This document shows, one piece after another, positions 30,549 to 42,803 of a DNA stretch of 64,000 bases; the first letter of the stretch is position 1, and every line of letters starts with the position of its first letter. The notes under the pieces were generated by a model that ran no database searches, was not told where the DNA came from, and was given only the letters and a program-made list of their open reading frames with translations. Source of the stretch: Pirellulaceae bacterium (GTDB lineage Bacteria; Planctomycetota; Planctomycetia; Pirellulales; Pirellulaceae); contig JAGFJK010000275.1 of NCBI GenBank assembly GCA_024102795.1, positions 1-64,000 on the forward strand, in the 5' to 3' direction. A program made the position numbers and the translations under genes.

Positions 30549-31886
30549 ATGCGCGGTGCGATCCGAGCGATGCGGTTGGACGACTATCCGCGGGTTCGCG
30601 AGCTGTGGGAGGCGGCCGCCGGCGTGGGGCTGGATGAGTCGGACGATCTGGCGGGAATCACGCTTTATCTGGAGCGCAACCCGCAACTGAGCCTGGTGGC
30701 CGAGGATGGCGGCCAGATCGTGGGGGCCGTGTTGTGCGGTCACGATGGGCGCCGCGGCTATCTGTCGCACCTGGCCGTGGCCGAAGGTTATCGGCGAGCG
30801 GGCCTGGGACGGCAACTGGTCGAACGCTGCTTGAACCAGCTTTTCCTGGCCGGGCTGCGCAAGTGCAACGTGCGGATCTTTGGCCACAATCACGGCGGGC
30901 TGGAATTCTGGCGAGCGATGGGCTGGAAGGAGCGCGACGACCTGCAGGTGCTGACCATCTATGCCGACCCGGCCGCCCGCCGCCAGGATCCGCGCGCGAA
31001 CTACTGGTCCGAACCAGCGGACACGGCGCGCCAGGCTTCCAGCGTGCCCTTGTACCAGGTAGACGCCTTCACCAGTCGGCCGTTCTCCGGCAACCCGGCC
31101 GCGGTCTGCCTGCTGGACCACCCGGCCGATGACGCCTGGATGCAGGCGGTCGCGGCGGAGATGAACCTGTCGGAAACGGCGTTCGTGCTGCGGTCCGCCA
31201 GCGGGTCATCGGGAGAACCGCATGGTCTGCGCTGGTTCACGCCGCGCGTGGAGGTTGACCTGTGCGGCCATGCGACCTTGGCGGCCGCGCACGTGCTGTG
31301 GCAACAGGGTTGGGCCGGCCGGGAAGACACGCTGCGGTTCCACAGTCGCAGCGGTGAGTTGCGGGCCGAGCGCCGGGGCGAGTGGATCGAGCTGGATTTT
31401 CCGGCGCTGAGCGTGCGGGAGGCTCCCGCACCGCCAGGTTTGCTGGCGGCGCTTGGCGTCGATCCGCTGTTTGTCGGCCGCTGCGGCCTCTCGCCAGACC
31501 AGGACCGGGGCGACTACCTGGTGCATGTCCAGTCGCCCGCCGAAGTCGCGCGGCTCGCGCCCGATTTCACTGCTTTGGCCCGGATTGCCATGCGCGGGGC
31601 GATCGTGACCAGCCAGTCGGACAGCGACGGCTGCGACTTTGTATCGCGATTCTTCGCCCCCGCCTGTGGAGTGAATGAGGACCCAGTGACCGGCTCGGCT
31701 CACTGCGGCCTGGGCCCGTACTGGCGGCAGCGTCTGGGCCGCGACGAACTGACCGGCCGGCAGTTGTCCGAGCGGGGTGGCGAGGTTCGGGTGCGCGTGG
31801 CGGGCGAGCGGGTTTTGCTTGGCGGCCAGGCGGTAACGGTGTTCTCTGGCCGGCTCTCTGGCACGCCGCGAACGTTCAGAACATGA
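30549..31886 (+). CDS. GNAT acetyltransferase fused to PhzF-like isomerase
   Basis: A 445-residue bifunctional-looking protein from ATG 30549. Residues 1-140 are a GNAT N-acetyltransferase (SHLAVAEGYRRAGLGRQLVE, acetyl-CoA loop; NHGGLEFWRAMGWKERDD). Residues 168-440 are a PhzF/diaminopimelate-epimerase fold (VDAFTSRPFSGNPAAVCLLD, catalytic Glu209 in NLSETAF, DLCGHATLAAAHVL, FAPACGVNEDPVTGSAHC). A linker (about 141-167) lies between them and no stop or frameshift is seen. Neither substrate is known; fusion suggests the two act on one metabolite. It follows the molybdopterin gene by 76 bp containing three GATACC direct repeats. Confidence 0.85.
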   Translation: MRGAIRAMRLDDYPRVRELWEAAAGVGLDESDDLAGITLYLERNPQLSLVAEDGGQIVGAVLCGHDGRRGYLSHLAVAEGYRRAGLGRQLVERCLNQLFLAGLRKCNVRIFGHNHGGLEFWRAMGWKERDDLQVLTIYADPAARRQDPRANYWSEPADTARQASSVPLYQVDAFTSRPFSGNPAAVCLLDHPADDAWMQAVAAEMNLSETAFVLRSASGSSGEPHGLRWFTPRVEVDLCGHATLAAAHVLWQQGWAGREDTLRFHSRSGELRAERRGEWIELDFPALSVREAPAPPGLLAALGVDPLFVGRCGLSPDQDRGDYLVHVQSPAEVARLAPDFTALARIAMRGAIVTSQSDSDGCDFVSRFFAPACGVNEDPVTGSAHCGLGPYWRQRLGRDELTGRQLSERGGEVRVRVAGERVLLGGQAVTVFSGRLSGTPRTFRT

Positions 31887-31911
31887 AACAGATGTTCGCC
31901 TGTCTGAACAT
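31874..31911. promoter_or_regulatory. Nested short inverted repeats at the end of the GNAT-PhzF gene
   Basis: GAACAT (31879) and ATGTTC (31892) form a 6-bp palindrome. GTTCAGA (31874) and TCTGAAC (31903) form a 7-bp one around it, and a third GAACAT is at 31906. It overlaps the stop codon and could be an operator for the downstream gene or a 3' hairpin. Confidence 0.3.
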
Positions 31912-31941
31912 GGCGTGTTTCAACCCTCATACACTTTCCCG

Positions 31942-32035: not shown

Positions 32036-32182
32036 TTCAACAAGTGGTACGGATTATGCTGAGGGTAGGTTTCGAAAGCAAAACGTGTCCAGCGGATTGA
32101 ACGGGTGACCTTCCGCCGGGCAAACCAGGCGGCCGCCCGCGGGGTGGCCCAACCCTCGTACCAGGCGTCGAAGGAGAGTGTG

Positions 32183-32602
32183 GTGAAACGAATACTGGAG
32201 CGATTGTGGCGGGAAGACGAAGGCACGTTGTCGTTCGAATGGGTGACGTTGACCACGTTGCTGACGATCGGTGCCGTGGGCGGACTGGCCAGCGTGCGCG
32301 ATGCGGTGGTGGACGAAATGGCCGACATGACCGAAGCGATCGTGTCGCTGGACCAGTCGTATGTGGTGGAGCCGCCGTGCCTGGTCTCGGTGCACAGTTC
32401 CAACGGCTCGACCGCTCGGGTGCGCGAGTTTCGCTTGACCGGGCCGGGCGTCGGCGTGCAGGTCCGCCCGCCTCGGCTGCAGGGCAGTGGCAGCGGGGCG
32501 GCCGGCACACTGTTCCGCGACACGCGTCCCGAGGTGGATCGCCAGCCACTGGGAACCCCGACGAACCCGCCGGCGGCCGACCCGTTGCAGGGAGAACTGT
32601 AG
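32183..32602 (+). CDS. Prepilin-like small membrane protein, paralogue 1
   Basis: A 139-residue protein from GTG 32183 (AAGGAG 6 bp upstream). A short charged leader (VKRILERLWREDEG) ends in Gly, followed by TLSFEWVTLTTLLTIGAVGG. With cleavage after Gly, Glu is at +5 and an aromatic at +6, as in Flp/type IVb prepilins. A single hydrophobic helix follows, then a helix RDAVVDEMADMTEAIVSLDQ and a variable Pro/Gly-rich tail. It is about 60% identical to the protein at 33140 over the first 55 residues. No prepilin peptidase or Tad genes occur here. Annotated function is unknown; the pilin assignment is an inference from the motif. Confidence 0.75.
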   Translation: MKRILERLWREDEGTLSFEWVTLTTLLTIGAVGGLASVRDAVVDEMADMTEAIVSLDQSYVVEPPCLVSVHSSNGSTARVREFRLTGPGVGVQVRPPRLQGSGSGAAGTLFRDTRPEVDRQPLGTPTNPPAADPLQGEL

Positions 32603-32611
32603 TTCACCAAA

Positions 32612-32691
32612 CGTAGAATGGGCTTCCAGCCCGTTTCAGGAACGGGGACAGTCGTTCCACCAACGATCGCAACCGGCTTCCAGCCCGTGAC
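32612..32691. repeat. Repeat cluster: family C, family B, family C
   Basis: A GGGCTTCCAGCCC copy (32612-32637), a GGGACAGTCGTTCCACCAACG copy of the palindrome that also occurs inside the PglX-like gene (32638-32668), and a partial CGGCTTCCAGCCCGTGA (32670-32691) stand side by side. They begin the 537-bp gap 32603-33139, in which no gene is seen. Confidence 0.85.
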
Positions 32692-32777
32692 GGTCCTCAG
32701 AAATTACCATCCAGCCTGATCGATCGGGTGACTCCATTTTCTCGATTGGGTTGTGGAGGAGAAATCCTCCGCGTCGA

Positions 32778-32817
32778 AGAGCTTCGCCACTCAGCCAGGT
32801 GGCGAGGCTCTTTTTTT
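32778..32817 (+). terminator. Rho-independent terminator-like hairpin
   Basis: Arms AGAGCTTCGCCA and TGGCGAGGCTCT (one mismatch) around a CTCAGCCAGG loop are followed by seven T. It is about 175 bp after prepilin-like gene 1 and before gene 2, so it would separate their transcripts. Confidence 0.75.
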
Positions 32818-33139
32818 GTTTCTTGTCCAAACCGCGGAGCGCCTTGCCAAGGCGGCTGAACGGGCCGTGTTTCAAGGTTGCGACGAGTTTTCGGCCGGCG
32901 GCGTTCGGGGCGGATCGGCGGGAAGAATCGTAAGACGGAATGGCCAGACGAGTTACGTTCGTGTTCGGGTTGTAGCGGTTGTAATTTTTATGCGGCTGGT
33001 ACGGGTTGTGCGGATAGTGCCGCCCGGAAAGCCGGGATGCCTGAGTTTTGCTTTCGACGAGGGCCGGCTTGGTCGCTCCAGTGTGTGGGGCTGGCCGCAC
33101 AGTGTTTTCGATGCTTGGTACTTGTCTAAGGAGTCACCC

Positions 33140-33469
33140 GTGAAGAGTACCCTGAAGCGCATTTGGAAAGAGGACGACGGCGTGCTGTCGTTCGAATGGG
33201 TGTTGCTCGTCACCCTGTTGACGATCGGCATCGTGAGTGGTCTGGCTGGCGCTCGCGACGCGATCATTGACGAGTTGGGCGACGTGGCTCAAGCGATGTT
33301 GGCGTTGGATCAGTCGTATACGATCGACTTCCCGCTGGAAGTGATCGTGCACGCTCCCACGGCCAGCAGCGCCAGCGACTCGGAATTCATCGACGCCTGG
33401 TTCTATGTGGACTGCGATCGCACCGCGGCTCCGCAAGGCCAAGGCCCCGTGGACGACTTCGATTCCTAA
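33140..33469 (+). CDS. Prepilin-like small membrane protein, paralogue 2
   Basis: A 109-residue paralogue of the gene at 32183, from GTG 33140 with AAGGAG 6 bp upstream; a longer reading to 32753 would translate through the terminator and is rejected. Leader VKSTLKRIWKEDDG is followed by VLSFEWVLLVTLLTIGIVSG (Gly -1, Glu +5). Next comes LAGARDAIIDELGDVAQAML and a short acidic tail ending DDFDS. The core is conserved while the tails differ from paralogue 1, as expected of surface-exposed pilin-type subunits. It ends 111 bp before a strong terminator. Confidence 0.78.
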   Translation: MKSTLKRIWKEDDGVLSFEWVLLVTLLTIGIVSGLAGARDAIIDELGDVAQAMLALDQSYTIDFPLEVIVHAPTASSASDSEFIDAWFYVDCDRTAAPQGQGPVDDFDS

Positions 33470-33747: not shown

Positions 33748-35397
33748 CTAGAGCACTTCCGCCACAAAGCACCGCTGGTCGCGATAGATGATCCGCACCG
33801 GCGGCGAGTCGGAGCGTTCGGCCAGTTGGACGACGCGAGCCAACTGGCGGTGCCGCTGGCGATCGACGACGACGAACTTCAGTCGATGTTGCTGGACCAG
33901 GTCGAGCCACTGCGGGTCGCCGGCCGCGAGCCGCTGGTAGTCGTTCCAGGTGTCGTCGCCGAGCAGATGGACGTGCGAGTAGACCAGCGGCTGGATCCGC
34001 CCCTCGGTCTTCCAGATCAGGTAATCGGCCCAATCCATCGGAGCGACCAGCCGTCCCTCGGCCTGCCGACGCACCAGTTCGTCGGCTACGTACCAGGGAG
34101 TTCCTTGCCCGGTCACGCGGGCTTCGCCGCGCGGCGCATTAAACAGCAACGCCCGGCTGGGCGGCGCCGCCAGCAGCGCGGCGAACACAATGGCCAGCGC
34201 CAGCAACGTGCGCATCGAGGCTTCGCGCGGCGAACTCGCTCGCCCCGCCGCCGGGCTTCCAACCCACCGCTGCCAGGCCGCATACGCGCACGGCGCCATG
34301 GCCCACGGCCAGACCAGCGCCCACCAGGTGAGCATCCGCATCGCGGACAGCGTCAACAGGCCGAACACGACCAGCACCAGAACGTCGGTCAACCGCGGCC
34401 GACGAGGGCTGGCCCAACACACGAGCGCAGTGACCGCCAGGCTGCCGAAGAACAGCCCGCCCGACATGCTCCACAACGTCAGCTCGCGCCATTCGGAGAT
34501 GGCCGACAGCGGCGCGTGCCGGCCGAACGAGGCGACTTCCAGCAGCAGCCAGGGTCCCAGCGGGTTGAGGCACGAGGCGGCAACGGCCAGCAGCAGGGCA
34601 AGCCACGCGGACTGGACCGACGCGTCCCGCAGCACGGACGGCAGAACCTCCCGAAGCGCGGGCAGCGGCGCCGCGCCGGCACCGGCCGGCTTCCGGCGAA
34701 CGAACCAGGCGGTTACGGTCCGGCCCGCGGCTTCCAGGCCCAGCAGCAGCAGGCCGACGGCAAACGACCCGTGCAGGTTCGCCCAGACGGCGAATACCGC
34801 GGCCAGCAGCCAGGGCCACCAGCGGTTCCGGTCGGCCGATCCCAAGGCAACCAGCACCAGGGGCACGCCAACCATCCCGCACAACTGGGGCCGAATCGTT
34901 CCCACCACGGGCGCGGCCAGCAAAATGGCCGCGACGCCCCCCGCCACTCCGCACAGCAGCGGCAGACCACGCCGCTGAATGGCCCACATCAACAATCCGG
35001 TGGACAACGTGGCCAGCATCGCATGCACCAGGACCAGGCCCTCGGCGCCCAGTCGCTGATAGACCAGGTATCCAGCGACTTGCGACAGCCAGGGGACGTT
35101 GGTGGCCGGTCCCGGCAGCGGCTCCGCGGCAAACGGATCCTGGTCGGGCAGCCCGCCATGAGTGACGATCCAGCGGCCGAAATTCAAATGACCCCAGAGG
35201 TCGGTATGATTCAAGCGATGGATGCTGATCAACACGAACACCAGGCTCAGCGCCACGACGGCCGCCAACAGGCTGTAGCTGGTCCGCGGAACGTAGGGGC
35301 TGGTCAGGTTGTCTCGAGTCAGGCAGACCGGCAGCGGCTTTCCGCCATCGGCGTCCGCAAGTTCGGGTGACTTGTCAACCAGCGTGTCTTGCGCCAT
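33748..35397 (-). CDS. Multi-TM membrane protein resembling GT-C glycosyltransferases
   Basis: A 549-residue integral membrane protein. After a soluble N-terminus (about 40 residues) there are about ten hydrophobic helices. Then a soluble C-terminal domain of about 100 residues follows (RVTGQGTPWYVADELVRRQA ... DRQRHRQLARVVQLAERSD). The first periplasmic loop has HTDLWGHLNFGRWIVTHGG and DQDPF, the acidic loop pattern (DLW.HL..GRWI...G..P..DPF) seen in GT-C membrane glycosyltransferases that use lipid-linked sugars. Specificity is unknown. It is last of a minus-strand run with the two genes upstream (49-bp gap). Confidence 0.7.
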   Translation of the reverse strand: MAQDTLVDKSPELADADGGKPLPVCLTRDNLTSPYVPRTSYSLLAAVVALSLVFVLISIHRLNHTDLWGHLNFGRWIVTHGGLPDQDPFAAEPLPGPATNVPWLSQVAGYLVYQRLGAEGLVLVHAMLATLSTGLLMWAIQRRGLPLLCGVAGGVAAILLAAPVVGTIRPQLCGMVGVPLVLVALGSADRNRWWPWLLAAVFAVWANLHGSFAVGLLLLGLEAAGRTVTAWFVRRKPAGAGAAPLPALREVLPSVLRDASVQSAWLALLLAVAASCLNPLGPWLLLEVASFGRHAPLSAISEWRELTLWSMSGGLFFGSLAVTALVCWASPRRPRLTDVLVLVVFGLLTLSAMRMLTWWALVWPWAMAPCAYAAWQRWVGSPAAGRASSPREASMRTLLALAIVFAALLAAPPSRALLFNAPRGEARVTGQGTPWYVADELVRRQAEGRLVAPMDWADYLIWKTEGRIQPLVYSHVHLLGDDTWNDYQRLAAGDPQWLDLVQQHRLKFVVVDRQRHRQLARVVQLAERSDSPPVRIIYRDQRCFVAEVL

Positions 35398-35446: not shown

Positions 35447-36637
35447 TCAGGGGGCCGGATGAGCGGCTTGCCAGGCCTCCAGCGGTTGTTTCCCGCGCCA
35501 GAAACTGAGCGCTCGCGCCCCGTGCGAAAAAGGACCGTACCGCTCGTTCAACTCGGCGCTGTCGACTTCGAGCAGCGTGCGAGCCAGCCACTGTCCGGCC
35601 CGCACCAGCGTTTCGCGCGGCGGCTGTACTTCGTCAGGCGCCAGGGCCAGCCATTCCAGATGGTGGCCGGTGACCAGCAGCCGGTCGCCCAGGTTGTGGT
35701 CGCGGTCTTGCTGAGCGGCCTGGCCTTCAGGCCAGCGGCGAGTCCAGAAGCCGGCGGGGGTTTGCGCCTGCACCAGCAGTCCGCTGACCCGTTGCATGTG
35801 GTCGAGCAGCTTCTGCCGCGTGGCCGGCCGCAGCACGCCGCCCGCCAGTTCGTCCGCCCGATACAGGACGACGACCGCTTCCATCCGGTGCAGCCCGTTG
35901 CAGGGTCCCAGTTCCAGGGGCGGTCCGAGCAGTTGATCGACCAGCGCATCGACTTCGATCACCTGCCCGTACTTGTTCCGCCAGGAAGTCAGCGGGAAGG
36001 CGTAGCGGGCGTAGCTGATGATCGTCCATTCAAACTCGTGGCGCTCCAGGTGGAAATCCTCGAGCGACTGGCGAAGCAGGTCGCCGACGACGCCCTGCCC
36101 GCCGCGGGTCACCAGAGGCGTGTCCAACGCCACCCCGGATTCGCCCAAGGTGGCCAGCAGGTCGTCTGGATGAAAGCTGCCCGACCTGGCGTATTGGGCC
36201 AGGTCGTCATAGCTGCGGGCCACGATCCCCCGCTCGGTCGGCAGGAACAAGGGGGGCGTTTGCGGACCGGCGAATTGCTGGAAGACGTCGTCGCGGAGAA
36301 AGTAGTCCAGCATCTGCTGGCCGGAGGGGATCGCCGGGTCCGGGAACCGCGCCTGGCCGCTCCACAGCCGCAGCGCGTGAATCCAGTTGTTCGTGTTGAC
36401 CGGGCCCTGCTCCGTGGGAGCCGTCAGCAGCCGCGGCTGCACGCGATCCAGGATCTCGGCCAGTTGCTGGTCGGTGACCATCCGCGGTTCATCGAATCGC
36501 GGTTCGATGTTCCACGGCTCGGACCGCGGCAGCTCCAGCGGCCGAGGCGTTTCGACCACAAACGCCAGGCGGCAGATCGTCAGTCCGGCCAGCAGAATCA
36601 ATCCCGGCAAGGTCCAGCGGCTGAGTCGGGCGAGCAT
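35447..36637 (-). CDS. Membrane-anchored conserved hypothetical, planctomycete type
   Basis: A 396-residue protein with an N-terminal signal anchor (LPGLILLAGLTICRLAFVV). The rest is soluble, rich in Leu-rich helices (RSYDDLAQYARSGSFHPDDL, GPCNGLHRMEAVVVLYRADE, LVTGHHLEWLALAPDE). The alternation of helices hints at an alpha/alpha toroid, but no catalytic motif is recognised. It lies between the sigma-54 activator (73-bp gap) and the GT-C-like gene (49-bp gap), so it probably belongs to the same transcription unit. No function is assigned. Confidence 0.75.
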   Translation of the reverse strand: MLARLSRWTLPGLILLAGLTICRLAFVVETPRPLELPRSEPWNIEPRFDEPRMVTDQQLAEILDRVQPRLLTAPTEQGPVNTNNWIHALRLWSGQARFPDPAIPSGQQMLDYFLRDDVFQQFAGPQTPPLFLPTERGIVARSYDDLAQYARSGSFHPDDLLATLGESGVALDTPLVTRGGQGVVGDLLRQSLEDFHLERHEFEWTIISYARYAFPLTSWRNKYGQVIEVDALVDQLLGPPLELGPCNGLHRMEAVVVLYRADELAGGVLRPATRQKLLDHMQRVSGLLVQAQTPAGFWTRRWPEGQAAQQDRDHNLGDRLLVTGHHLEWLALAPDEVQPPRETLVRAGQWLARTLLEVDSAELNERYGPFSHGARALSFWRGKQPLEAWQAAHPAP

Positions 36638-36710: not shown

Positions 36711-38225
36711 TTACAGCAGCCCGTGCTTCTTCATTTTGTTGTACAGCGTTACGCGGCTGATCCCCAGCTCGGCCGCCGTCTGCTTGCGGCGATGATTGTT
36801 CCGCCGCAGGGCATCCTCGATGATCCGCCGTTCCAGCATGTCGACGCGGGCTTCCAGCGACGACGAAGGTCCGCTGGCATGCGACTCGCTGAACACCGGT
36901 TCGACGTTGTACTTGGTGCTGGTCGGCAAGGTGGCCGCGTGGCCGTTCATGCCACTTCCCGGCGGCCGGTGGCCGTAGCCGTGAGGCGGCCCCTGGTTCA
37001 TGAAGGCGCCCATCGAAGGCATCGTTCGCAAGGGACGGCCCTGCGTCGCGGAGCGAATCGAACTGGGCAGATCATTCAGGGCCAGGACGCCCCTCTGGCA
37101 ATATAGCACCGCGCGGCGGACGACGTTTTCCATCTCGCGGATATTCCCCGGCCACTGGTACTTGCGGAGCGCGTCGAGGAAGTCGGTTTCGATGGCCCGC
37201 AGGCGGATGCCGTGCGTGCGGCTGTGCTCCAAGGCGAACTTTCGCGCCAGGTATTCGATGTCCCAGGGCCGAGCCCGCAGCGGCGGCACGTGAAAACTCA
37301 GAATATTCAGACGATAGTACAGATCCGTGCGAAACGTTCCATTCCGCACCAGGTCTTCCAGATCGTAATTCGACGCCACGATCAGCCGAGCCTGGCTGTG
37401 CTGCGTGTCGTTGCTGCCCACCGGCTCGTACTCGCCCGTTTCGATCACCCGCAGCAACTTGGCCTGCTGGTCCGGCGGCAGCACGTCGATCTCGTCCAGC
37501 AACAGCGTGCCCCGGCCCGCCGCCGCGAACTTTCCCTCGCGGTCCTGGTCCGCGCCAGTGAACGCGCCCTTCACGTTGCCGAACAACTCGCTTTCGATCA
37601 GATCCGGCGGCAACGCGCCGCAGGCCACCGTGCAGAACCGCTCCTCGCAGCGATCGCTCAACTCGTGGATCAACCGGGCCAGAAACGTCTTGCCACAACC
37701 CGTCTCGCCAATCAGCAGGACCGTCACGTTGTGCCGCGCCGCCACCTTGATCTCGTCCATCATCTCGAACATGTCGGGAGTGAACGTGACCAGCGATCGC
37801 GTGCGGCCGTGCAGCTCCTTGTGCGGCATGCCCGTCCAGAACCCCTCCAGTTCCCGCTCCAGATCGGCCGGATGGGAAAGCAGCGTCTTGAGCTGCTGGT
37901 AGTCCAGGGGCAAGTCCAGGAAGTCGTCGATCGCCCGGCTGGCCAGGCTCTGCAGCCGGGGCGGACAATCGGACCCGACCAGCCCGTACAGCGCCGCCCC
38001 GCGATTCATCTCCCGCAGCTCCGCCAGAAAGCGGTTGGCCGAGTATCCGTTGAGCGTGTCGGGGCCCAAGTGAACCAGCACCGCCTCCGGCTCGACCGAT
38101 GTGATCCGCTTCCGCAGGGCGTCCAGCGAATCGCAGCCCACCACGCGATGCTCGCCATGCAGTTGCCGACCGATTTCGTCCAGCAGGGCTTCGTTACGAC
38201 TCAGTACCAGCAGGTCGTCACTCAT
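36711..38225 (-). CDS. Sigma-54-dependent activator with degenerate receiver domain
   Basis: An NtrC-type enhancer-binding protein of 504 residues from ATG 38225 (GTG 38234 adjoins). Residues 1-125 form a receiver-like domain whose phosphoacceptor Asp is replaced (EAVLVHLGPD instead of VLLD). The AAA+ domain has Walker A GETGCGKT (173-180), the sigma-54 loop GAFTGA (220-225) and Walker B LLLDEI (242-247), followed by WPGNIREMENVV. The Fis-type HTH is at 467-504 (HRRKQTAAELGISRVTLYNK). It should drive transcription from -24/-12 promoters, with control by something other than canonical phosphorylation. No -24/-12 site was seen in the window. Confidence 0.92.
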   Translation of the reverse strand: MSDDLLVLSRNEALLDEIGRQLHGEHRVVGCDSLDALRKRITSVEPEAVLVHLGPDTLNGYSANRFLAELREMNRGAALYGLVGSDCPPRLQSLASRAIDDFLDLPLDYQQLKTLLSHPADLERELEGFWTGMPHKELHGRTRSLVTFTPDMFEMMDEIKVAARHNVTVLLIGETGCGKTFLARLIHELSDRCEERFCTVACGALPPDLIESELFGNVKGAFTGADQDREGKFAAAGRGTLLLDEIDVLPPDQQAKLLRVIETGEYEPVGSNDTQHSQARLIVASNYDLEDLVRNGTFRTDLYYRLNILSFHVPPLRARPWDIEYLARKFALEHSRTHGIRLRAIETDFLDALRKYQWPGNIREMENVVRRAVLYCQRGVLALNDLPSSIRSATQGRPLRTMPSMGAFMNQGPPHGYGHRPPGSGMNGHAATLPTSTKYNVEPVFSESHASGPSSSLEARVDMLERRIIEDALRRNNHRRKQTAAELGISRVTLYNKMKKHGLL

Positions 38226-38299
38226 CCGGGTCACCGTTCAGTAAGTGAGAGTCTCGCTGCCACGGGAATGCTTCACCTTCCGCACCACACGGCAAGCAA

Positions 38300-38601: not shown

Positions 38602-39144
38602 ATGCAGATCGTGTTATTCACATTGCTGGCGCTCACGGGCGCCGATGCCAGCCACGCCTCGGCCAACCACGCACACTCCGCGACCGTGTCGTCCGCTGGT
38701 GCCTGCGCGGCCGCCGATTGCCAGGGTTGCGGGACGGGGCTGTCGCACGCCGAACGCCGGGCGGTGAAGCGGGCCGAGCATGCGGCGGAGCACGAGCGGC
38801 AGCACATGATGCCGCAAACCTGTTATGCGCCGCGACACGGGTGCTACTACAGCGGCGATCGCCACATGCACCGTTATCCGGCTTTCCACGGGACGTTCTA
38901 TCGCCGGCCCTACAACTACCGCAACGTGTTCGATTACCCGTGGCACGCCGAGCTGCACGAGCCGACTTCGCTGTTTTCGTACGGAGTCGAGACGGCCGCG
39001 GCGGCCACTCCGGTAGTCGACGCGCAACGGATGGATCCGCCAGCGCCGCCGGTGGACGCCGGTTCGAAGCGCGGCACGCGGGTCTATGTCGGCGACGACC
39101 TTTCCACCACCAGCCGCACGCCGGTTTCCCGCCACAGCCGTTAA
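38602..39144 (+). CDS. Small secreted His/Tyr/Ala-rich hypothetical protein
   Basis: A 180-residue protein with GGGAGG upstream of ATG 38602 and a short signal peptide (QIVLFTLLALTGADASHASA). The mature part has a Cys pair region (GACAAADCQGCGTG), a charged helix (SHAERRAVKRAEHAAEHER) and a His/Tyr/Arg-rich middle (CYYSGDRHMHRYPAFHGTFY, RRPYNYRNVFDYPWHAELHE). It resembles small exported planctomycete proteins of unknown role; metal binding is possible from its composition but not demonstrable. The 352 bp that follow (39145-39496) contain only diverged repeats and no gene. Confidence 0.7.
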   Translation: MQIVLFTLLALTGADASHASANHAHSATVSSAGACAAADCQGCGTGLSHAERRAVKRAEHAAEHERQHMMPQTCYAPRHGCYYSGDRHMHRYPAFHGTFYRRPYNYRNVFDYPWHAELHEPTSLFSYGVETAAAATPVVDAQRMDPPAPPVDAGSKRGTRVYVGDDLSTTSRTPVSRHSR

Positions 39145-41447: not shown

Positions 41448-42803
41448 TTGCGGCAGGTCCTGTTTTACATACCGGCCGAGCTGGCTGGGCTGCCCGTGTT
41501 CGGCATGGGCTGGTTGCTGATCCTGTGGCTTGCCGGCTGGACGATTTACACCGTGGTGCTGGCCTGCCTGCGACGCGACTGGCAGCGCGAGCTGCTGGGG
41601 CACCTGCTGCTGATCGGGCTGGGAGCCGGTGTCTGCTTCCTGCTGAACTGGATGCTGGAGACGACGCCCGCGGGCGAGCCGCTGGGTCTGCCGATCCGGG
41701 GCTACGGCGTGATGCTGCTGCTGGCCACGGTGGCCGGGGTCGGTTTGTCGGTCTACGCGGCCAGCCGCGAGGGGATCGAGCCGGATGTGATCTTGTCGCT
41801 GGCCTTCTGGATGTTCCTGGCGGGCATCGCCGGCGCCAGGTTGTTCTTCGTCATCCAGTATTGGAAGACATTCCAGCGTGAGACGCCTCTGGCCGCGCTG
41901 CTGGAAATGCTCAAGTTCACCGAAGGCGGACTGGTGGTCTACGGATCGGTGATCGGAGGGTTGCTGGCGGCCGTGGTCTACCTGCGGCGGCAGAAGCTGC
42001 CCGTGCTGAAAGTGGGCGATCTGATTGCGCCCGGAATGTTGCTGGGGCTGGCGCTGGGCCGGCTCGGTTGTCTGCTGAACGGCTGCTGCTGGGGCGGCGC
42101 TTGCGAGAATCCCTACCTGGCCTTGCATTTTCCGCCAGCCAGTCCACCCTATCTCGATCAGCTCGATCAAGGACAACTGCTGGGGCTGAGCCTGGTGGCG
42201 CAGGCTGGTGAAGAGGACGAGGCGGGCGAGCCGCAGGACGCTGAGGACCGGCAGTCGCGCAGCGCTCGCGGTCCGTGGCTGGTGGCAGCCGTCGAGCCTG
42301 GCAGTCCGGCGGCTCGGCGGGGGCTGCAGCCCGGACAACTCGTGCTGCGGCTGAGCATCCGGCCGGCGGACGAATGGCGGGAAGCGATCCGTACGAACAA
42401 CACGACCGTCCCGCTGGTGTCTCTGGAAGCGGATGACACGCCGCGGGTTGAATGGAACTGGAGCGAGCTGCCGGGGAGCAGCGGGGGCGTTCATCCGACG
42501 CAGCTCTACAGCTCGCTGAATGCCGCCCTGCTGGCCTGGTTTCTGTGGTGCTACTATCCCTTTCGCCGCCGCGACGGCGAAGTGTTCGCGCTGATGCTGT
42601 CGTTGTATCCCATCGCCCGGATCCTGCTGGAGTGGATCCGTGTTGACGAACCCGGCCAGTGGGGTACGTCGCTGACGATCTCGCAGTGGGTCAGCCTGGG
42701 TCTGCTGGCCCTGGCCGCCGCGTTGTGGCTGATCCTGTTCCGCCGTCCGGTCCTGTCCGAGTCGCTTGGTTCGGGCGGGGGTCGTCCGGTAAACTCAACT
42801 TGA
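41448..42803 (+). CDS. lgt: Prolipoprotein diacylglyceryl transferase Lgt with PDZ-like insert
   Basis: Lgt transfers diacylglycerol from phosphatidylglycerol to the Cys of prolipoproteins. The 451-residue membrane protein starts at TTG 41448 (GGGAG inside the panC end). Core motifs are IRGYGVMLLLA, FTEGGLVVYGSVIGG, the Lgt signature GRLGCLLNGCCWGG (204-217), HPTQLY (349-354) and RILLEWIRVDE (391-401). Between the signature and HPTQLY lies an extra soluble segment (about 235-345). It contains an acidic linker and a PDZ-like unit (LVAAVEPGSPAARRGLQPGQ). The usual family length is about 260-300 residues. Confidence 0.92.
   Translation: MRQVLFYIPAELAGLPVFGMGWLLILWLAGWTIYTVVLACLRRDWQRELLGHLLLIGLGAGVCFLLNWMLETTPAGEPLGLPIRGYGVMLLLATVAGVGLSVYAASREGIEPDVILSLAFWMFLAGIAGARLFFVIQYWKTFQRETPLAALLEMLKFTEGGLVVYGSVIGGLLAAVVYLRRQKLPVLKVGDLIAPGMLLGLALGRLGCLLNGCCWGGACENPYLALHFPPASPPYLDQLDQGQLLGLSLVAQAGEEDEAGEPQDAEDRQSRSARGPWLVAAVEPGSPAARRGLQPGQLVLRLSIRPADEWREAIRTNNTTVPLVSLEADDTPRVEWNWSELPGSSGGVHPTQLYSSLNAALLAWFLWCYYPFRRRDGEVFALMLSLYPIARILLEWIRVDEPGQWGTSLTISQWVSLGLLALAAALWLILFRRPVLSESLGSGGGRPVNST

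Follow-up and report, generated by a model that had tools for sequence, protein, structure and literature searches.

A pair of probable Tad pilin genes with predicted sigma-54 control at a putative ancestral operon site in a Pirellulaceae bacterium

Introduction

Can two small prepilin-like genes that stand apart from any pilus machinery encode the subunits of a pilus? This question is raised by a gene pair, here named P1 and P2, in the window, a stretch of 64,000 nucleotides that forms the initial 64 kb of contig C29 in an assembly of 8.56 Mb and 519 contigs from a Pirellulaceae bacterium. The first-pass annotation had proposed that the pair represents an unnoticed, lineage-specific family of Flp-like surface subunits. 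We consider it likely that P1 and P2 serve as major-type pilin subunits in a Tad (tight adherence) pilus, that they lie at what seems to be an ancestral operon site, and that sigma-54 controls them. The basis for the pilus reading is homology, gene context, enrichment of promoters and half-sites, synteny and co-distribution.

Results

Two prepilin-like genes with separate terminator-like hairpins

The two genes and the hairpins that follow them are located as below.

32183..32602, + strand: P1, prepilin-like protein, probable Tad pilin of the E+5 clade; GTG start, 139 aa
32776..32813, + strand: terminator-like hairpin 3' of P1 with a T run; fold -27.9 kcal/mol, z -5.0
33140..33469, + strand: P2, prepilin-like protein, probable Tad pilin of the E+5 clade; GTG start, 109 aa
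33580..33613, + strand: terminator-like hairpin 3' of P2 with a T run; fold -29.7 kcal/mol, z -3.2

A purine-rich Shine-Dalgarno-like stretch was found ahead of the GTG codon in both genes. The leaders are MKRILERLWREDEG/TLSFEW in P1 and MKSTLKRIWKEDDG/VLSFEW in P2, where the slash marks the predicted cut, and both place Gly at -1 and Glu at +5. Both proteins share the layout G/xLSFEW, one hydrophobic helix (from sequence and helix prediction) and a polar tail, so that the prepilin-like motif originally reported for the pair was recovered in both open reading frames. The leaders had also been called basic, which is overstated, as their net charge by count is about neutral in P1 and about +1 in P2. 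BLASTP gave 54% identity across 83 residues, below the roughly 60% first reported for the cores; the divergence of the tails beyond this region was confirmed.

The structure of the pilin was modelled with AlphaFold2 using an alignment of 52 sequences. The model contained a single helix (2-57) with pLDDT above 90 in the middle, and the tail was predicted with low confidence. Flp pilins are expected to have little beyond the helix; P1 and P2 have 139 and 109 residues, including this low-confidence tail. The claim that each gene has its own terminator-like hairpin held; the pattern scan for terminators picked up the P1 hairpin and not the P2 hairpin, and folding supports both.

A pilin family outside the curated libraries

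P1 and P2 matched no Pfam family at E values up to 10, no NCBIfam model and no PDB sequence, and Foldseek with the pilin model returned no matches. Membership of Flp_Fap (PF04964) was rejected, as that model did not match. Assignment to TadE-like minor pilins (PF07811) was rejected by the same lack of a Pfam match and by a genome-wide TadE search that was blank on C29. Among the 13 family members of this genome, one gave a hint of PF04964 at E 0.15, and NCBIfam gave weak, scattered matches over 52 family members. In a profile comparison, the family aligned to Flp pilins, and both Gly(-1) and Glu(+5) fell on their Flp counterparts (probability 60, E 8.7e-5). Gly and Glu were invariant among the 52 aligned relatives (alignment A3), an invariance that is partly built in since the rows were picked by motif. 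Judged from these sequences, the family is sister-like to Flp/Fap and not within the PF04964 model.

The genome search suggested by the first-pass annotation did find further paralogues; the 13 members are distributed over six contigs (C29, two; C171, three; C354, four; C289, two; C413, one; C254, one). Of the 146 genomes of the order, 40 contained the family in a profile search, each with between 1 and 13 matches; PF04964, in contrast, scored above its cut-off in 105 of the 146. Across the phylum, the E+5-type profile matched at least 19 of 294 genomes, all 19 in the same class, and in another family of that class the count in a single genome reached 15 or more. Scoring was limited to 15 candidates in each genome; the true numbers may therefore be higher, and weak relatives may have been missed. 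This distribution and the lack of library matches agree with the proposal of an unnoticed, lineage-specific family. All relatives except one are planctomycete by record label. The exception, L047 (PBSN01000023.1), is titled Nitrospiraceae and carries a planctomycete-type pilin together with a PMT549 fragment and the 180-aa gene described below; it is probably a mis-binned contig.

A tree of 98 rows split, with support of 100/100, into the E+5 clade (58 rows) and a second clade of 40 rows in which Glu stands at +6. P1 clustered with the first pilin of the array at locus L041 and with L048 (95/94). No starred support accompanied the placement of P2, whose nearest rows were the lead pilin of C171 and the second pilin in the L041 array.

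The sister clade has an extra residue between Gly and Glu (G/FVVSTEL type) and thus departs from the Glu+5 rule. By motif, the Glu +6 type accounts for 42 of the 119 collected pilins, and it forms the one 40-row clade in the tree; examples are L017:2601-5110, L102, L110 and L116-L125. Tandem arrays of near-identical pilins were seen in another family of the class, at L153:8886-14621 (nine genes), L158 (nine) and L155:8195-12543 (seven). The pilins in these arrays have a constant core, a variable patch and a constant end, and look like a variant repertoire. Pilin-type N-termini also occur on frames of about 394-400 residues, as large-tailed members, at L117:6740, L123:12025(-) and L109:11122(-).

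Tad machinery is encoded elsewhere in the genome and beside relatives

Genome-wide searches with the pilus families PF01478 (prepilin peptidase), PF07811 (TadE) and PF00482 (T2SSF) gave no match on contig C29. The prepilin peptidase model PF01478 had six matches in five open frames of this genome, so that the lack of such a peptidase, named in advance as refuting the proposal, does not apply, and a Tad operon very probably lies at C171/C176. On C354, four pilin genes are followed by a prepilin peptidase gene. On C171, three pilin genes are followed by a prepilin peptidase gene, and P2 shares 87% identity with the lead pilin there. Exactly 26 bases at the left end of C171 recur at the right end of C176, inside the peptidase gene, and from there C176 encodes TadE, CpaB/RcpC, a TadG-like protein, CpaF, TadB and TadC. 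Pfam models matched across the two contigs were PF01478, PF07811, PF16976, PF00437 and, twice, PF00482, which covers the A24 peptidase, TadE, RcpC/CpaB, the CpaF ATPase, TadB and TadC; the TadG-like protein of C176 had no Pfam match. Because of the overlap within the peptidase gene and the gene content of C176, it is very probable that this genome has a Tad operon with members of this pilin family at its head. Among the genes called at C171/C176 by a simple script there was no secretin (RcpA/CpaC), and one secretin was found at C164. Classical Flp genes with a peptidase and CpaB are present at C328 and C164.

E+5 Tad operons at L057, L095 and L099 likewise have no secretin among the called genes and have a TadG-like gene without a Pfam match after CpaB.

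We then compared the loci of relatives. The 47 distinct loci are the 49 fetched minus duplicates (L043 = L093, L045 = L094), and were picked from the listed matches rather than at random. Gene maps were drawn with a simple purpose-written gene caller, and the Tad labels are BLAST labels, with a Pfam check for two operons, which confirmed that of L095. Family pilins adjoin at least two Tad machinery genes in 24 of the 47 loci; in the other 23, Tad machinery was not found within the stretch fetched. Encoding together with an A24 peptidase and Tad machinery is therefore true of the C171/C176 paralogues and of 24 of the 47 loci, and not of the site of the pair itself. The existence of an unannotated family of Flp-like Tad pilins confined to this lineage is well supported at the sequence level by its distribution, by the absence of Pfam, NCBIfam and PDB matches, and by the peptidase and Tad machinery adjoining the relatives.

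These data bear on two other explanations. P1 and P2 may be minor or tip pseudopilins, or prepilin-peptidase substrates retained in the membrane, rather than major filament subunits. Their separation from the machinery fits this explanation, as do tails that are variable and longer than those of Flp pilins, and the classical Flp genes at C328 and C164 could supply the main subunits. However, the relatives occupy the pilin place at the head of Tad operons, often as tandem sets, and C171 has no other pilin-type gene ahead of the peptidase, with TadE-type genes encoded separately; we regard a minor role as unlikely. The other explanation is that the pair encodes ordinary small membrane proteins with a coincidental Gly/Glu motif, as might be suggested by the lack of any curated family match. 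The 13 paralogues, the Tad operon context, the Flp alignment with both residues in register and the invariance of these residues in 52 relatives (in motif-selected rows) speak against chance, which we rejected. Given the operon context, coincidence is strongly disfavoured and the least probable of the explanations considered here.

A cassette beside the pair is shared with Tad operons

The genes that follow the pair on the contig are listed below.

33748..35397, - strand: PMT549, multi-pass membrane protein; homologues lie upstream of pilins in relatives' Tad operons
35447..36637, - strand: P396, membrane-anchored protein with a modelled alpha/alpha-toroid fold; co-distributed with the pilin family
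36711..38234, - strand: sigma-54-dependent activator (Sigma54_activat, HTH_8); intact gene
38602..39144, + strand: 180-aa protein in a conserved position beside the activator gene; homologues in L095, L105 and L047
39497..40516, + strand: HPPK (folK), flanking gene conserved at the operon site; L105 and L099 have homologues

Homologues of the activator, P396 and PMT549 lie ahead of the pilins in Tad operons, with all three in L095 and L099 and two in L094. The outer neighbours are conserved as well: homologues of the 180-aa gene adjoin the activator gene in L095 and L105, and HPPK homologues flank it in L105 and L099. The pair had been described as having no pilus assembly genes nearby. This is correct for the Tad core genes, none of which lies beside the pair, and incorrect in that three adjoining genes are Tad-operon associates. 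An orphan locus without pilus context was rejected by these flanking-gene homologues. We infer from the sequence comparison that the window is the ancestral Tad operon site, that the pilin pair has here been inverted with respect to the cassette, and that the machinery lies elsewhere.

Contig C254 of the same genome has homologues of the three cassette proteins (46%, 40% and 32% identity), adjoining TadE genes and a gene for a 60-aa Flp-like protein. This region (L018:4454-11751) encodes a sigma-54 activator, a TadG-like protein, TadE, the 60-aa Flp-like pilin, TadE, and homologues of PMT549 and P396, and its front module resembles that of the window.

P396 scored at least 350 bits in 32 of 40 pilin-positive genomes and in none of 106 pilin-negative genomes, with a cut-off placed, once the scores were known, in the gap from 366 to 236 bits. 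The eight pilin-positive genomes without a strong P396 all belong to family f17. The L041 and L048 genomes, which hold the nearest relatives of P1, carry P396 and PMT549 without pilins, and the L048 genome also carries the activator; because of this, the cassette and the pilins are separable. The L046 genome was represented by a short contig with few called genes.

A Foldseek search with P396 gave no match at E 0.001. In a VIA comparison, the P396 model resembled an alpha/alpha toroid, with GH105, terpene cyclases and transcobalamin at Z 15-17. This predicted fold is common to hydrolases, cyclases and binding proteins, and would indicate a fold and not a function. PMT549 and its relatives had no match in Pfam; by eye, PMT549 looks GT-C-like.

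Two further open reading frames of the window were read by eye. The frame at 30570-31886 (+) resembles a fusion of an acetyltransferase (GNAT) with a PhzF-like domain, and we take that at 41448-42803 (+) to be Lgt-like (prolipoprotein diacylglyceryl transferase) with what seems to be a PDZ-like insertion.

Predicted sigma-54 promoters and activator sites

The predicted control elements of the pair are as follows.

31904..31923, + strand: putative activator site of P1, CTGAAC-N2-G-N-CGTGTTTCAA; placed by half-site enrichment and spacing only
32045..32060, + strand: sigma-54-type promoter of P1, TGGTACGGATTATGCT
32856..32875, + strand: putative activator site of P2, with the same layout as that of P1; placed by half-site enrichment and spacing only
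32997..33012, + strand: sigma-54-type promoter of P2, TGGTACGGGTTGTGCG

RpoN is encoded in the genome, and the activator of the window has a sigma-54 interaction domain. A scan for sigma-70 promoters between 31880 and 33760 found none. In this genome, a GG-N10-GC site scoring at least 13 lies upstream of 10 of the 13 pilin genes, the other three being later genes of tandem sets. In shuffling tests, the promoters of P1 and P2 had p values of 0.000 and 0.043, respectively, and the values were modest for some genes. Among relatives, 24 of 56 lead pilins had the strict sigma-54 pattern upstream, compared with 3 of 50 followers and 6 of 441 other genes (leads versus others, Fisher p 3.6e-20); the remaining 32 lead pilins did not have it.

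The half-sites GTTTC/GAAAC were counted between -180 and -101. There were 30 observed against about 3.2 expected upstream of E+5 pilins (24 genes), and 6 against about 1.9 upstream of other pilins (15 genes), for a motif chosen after inspection and a control that was a simple letter shuffle. In P1, P2 and the lead gene of C171, GTTTC starts at -128 relative to the promoter; the C413 gene has it at -127. The composite pattern GTTTC-N(118-130)-GGYACR-N5-TGC had six matches in the genome, of which four are upstream of P1, P2 and these C171 and C413 genes, and a backwards control had five; the pattern was fitted to these genes, so that the positions of the matches are informative and not their number.

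The pair could instead be what is left of a displaced Tad operon, in decay and no longer expressed or used. The missing machinery and the reversal of the pilins with respect to the cassette are what such a remnant might show, and the signal for P1 is the weaker one, with dN 0.63 and dS 1.20 against its L041 relative. On the other hand, both frames are intact, P2 compared with its C171 paralogue gave dN 0.12 and dS 0.90, and the promoters, spaced half-sites and terminators are retained at both genes, as is an intact activator gene. Decay thus seems quite improbable, more so than a minor pilin role. The dS of 0.90 also rejects P2 as a recent gene-conversion copy of the C171 pilin.

Discussion

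We favor P1 and P2 as Tad pilin subunits, and the proposed mechanism covers activator binding, cleavage, assembly and surface exposure, together with roles for P396 and PMT549. The activator (36711-38234) would bind the GTTTC/GAAAC sites about 100-180 bases upstream of the -24/-12 promoters and drive sigma-54 RNA polymerase at P1 and P2 and at the related pilin genes of C171 and C413. Once inserted in the inner membrane, the prepilins would be cut after Gly14 by a CpaA-type A24 peptidase, either that of C171 or another of the five A24 frames. CpaF, TadB and TadC would then assemble the helices into a filament that presents the tails on its outside. P396 and PMT549 may form a conserved accessory module whose task could be to modify or glycosylate these tails.

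The family is like Flp/Fap (PF04964) in its Gly(-1)/Glu(+5) motif, its one hydrophobic helix and the position of its genes ahead of an A24 peptidase and Tad genes. Unlike Flp/Fap, it has W after Glu, the conserved motifs R-D-A...D-E-L and D/N-Q-S-Y/F, and a variable tail of 40-80 residues. The C171/C176 operon has the pilin clade in common with the window; it has the machinery and, in the stretch read, no activator/P396/PMT549 cassette, whereas the window has the cassette and no machinery.

Planctomycetes have large, expanded families of N_methyl and SBP_bac_10 proteins with prepilin-type leaders, according to one study (PMC8567305). These proteins differ in leader type and domain from P1 and P2, which match no Pfam model. 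In Pectobacterium, a two-component system adjacent to the flp/tad cluster raises its transcription, and the sigma-54 activator VasH left flp/tad expression unchanged in qPCR (PMC3767616). There, a regulator adjoins the Flp/Tad cluster as one adjoins the pilin pair in the window, where the regulator is itself a sigma-54 activator. Sigma-54 has been presented as a controller of the bacterial exterior (PMC3162934), and the control proposed for P1 and P2 would likewise act on a surface structure. Among open-licence PMC papers, judged by titles and the openings of abstracts, none on these planctomycete pilins was found. Tad pilins are known; judged by these papers and the protein libraries searched, the clade, its tails, the sigma-54 module and the P396/PMT549 pair are undescribed.

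Annotation based on the libraries searched here would leave the pilin of a planctomycete pilus system unnamed. The module described here gives that pilin a name and a predicted regulator, promoter and operator, and draws attention to a pair of accessory proteins that are so far uncharacterised. It is also a tractable example in which numerous pilins with different tails may supply a single Tad machine. More tentatively, and with somewhat less than even confidence, we suggest a dispersed repertoire formed by a distinct clade of Tad pilins in Planctomycetia, in which a dedicated sigma-54 activator, whose half-site stands at a set distance from the promoters, would co-induce pilins with different tails from separate loci for one Tad machine, and P396 and PMT549, as a new accessory pair, would modify the tails. 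If this is true, the filament would be either a fibre of mixed composition or a surface coat that can be switched.
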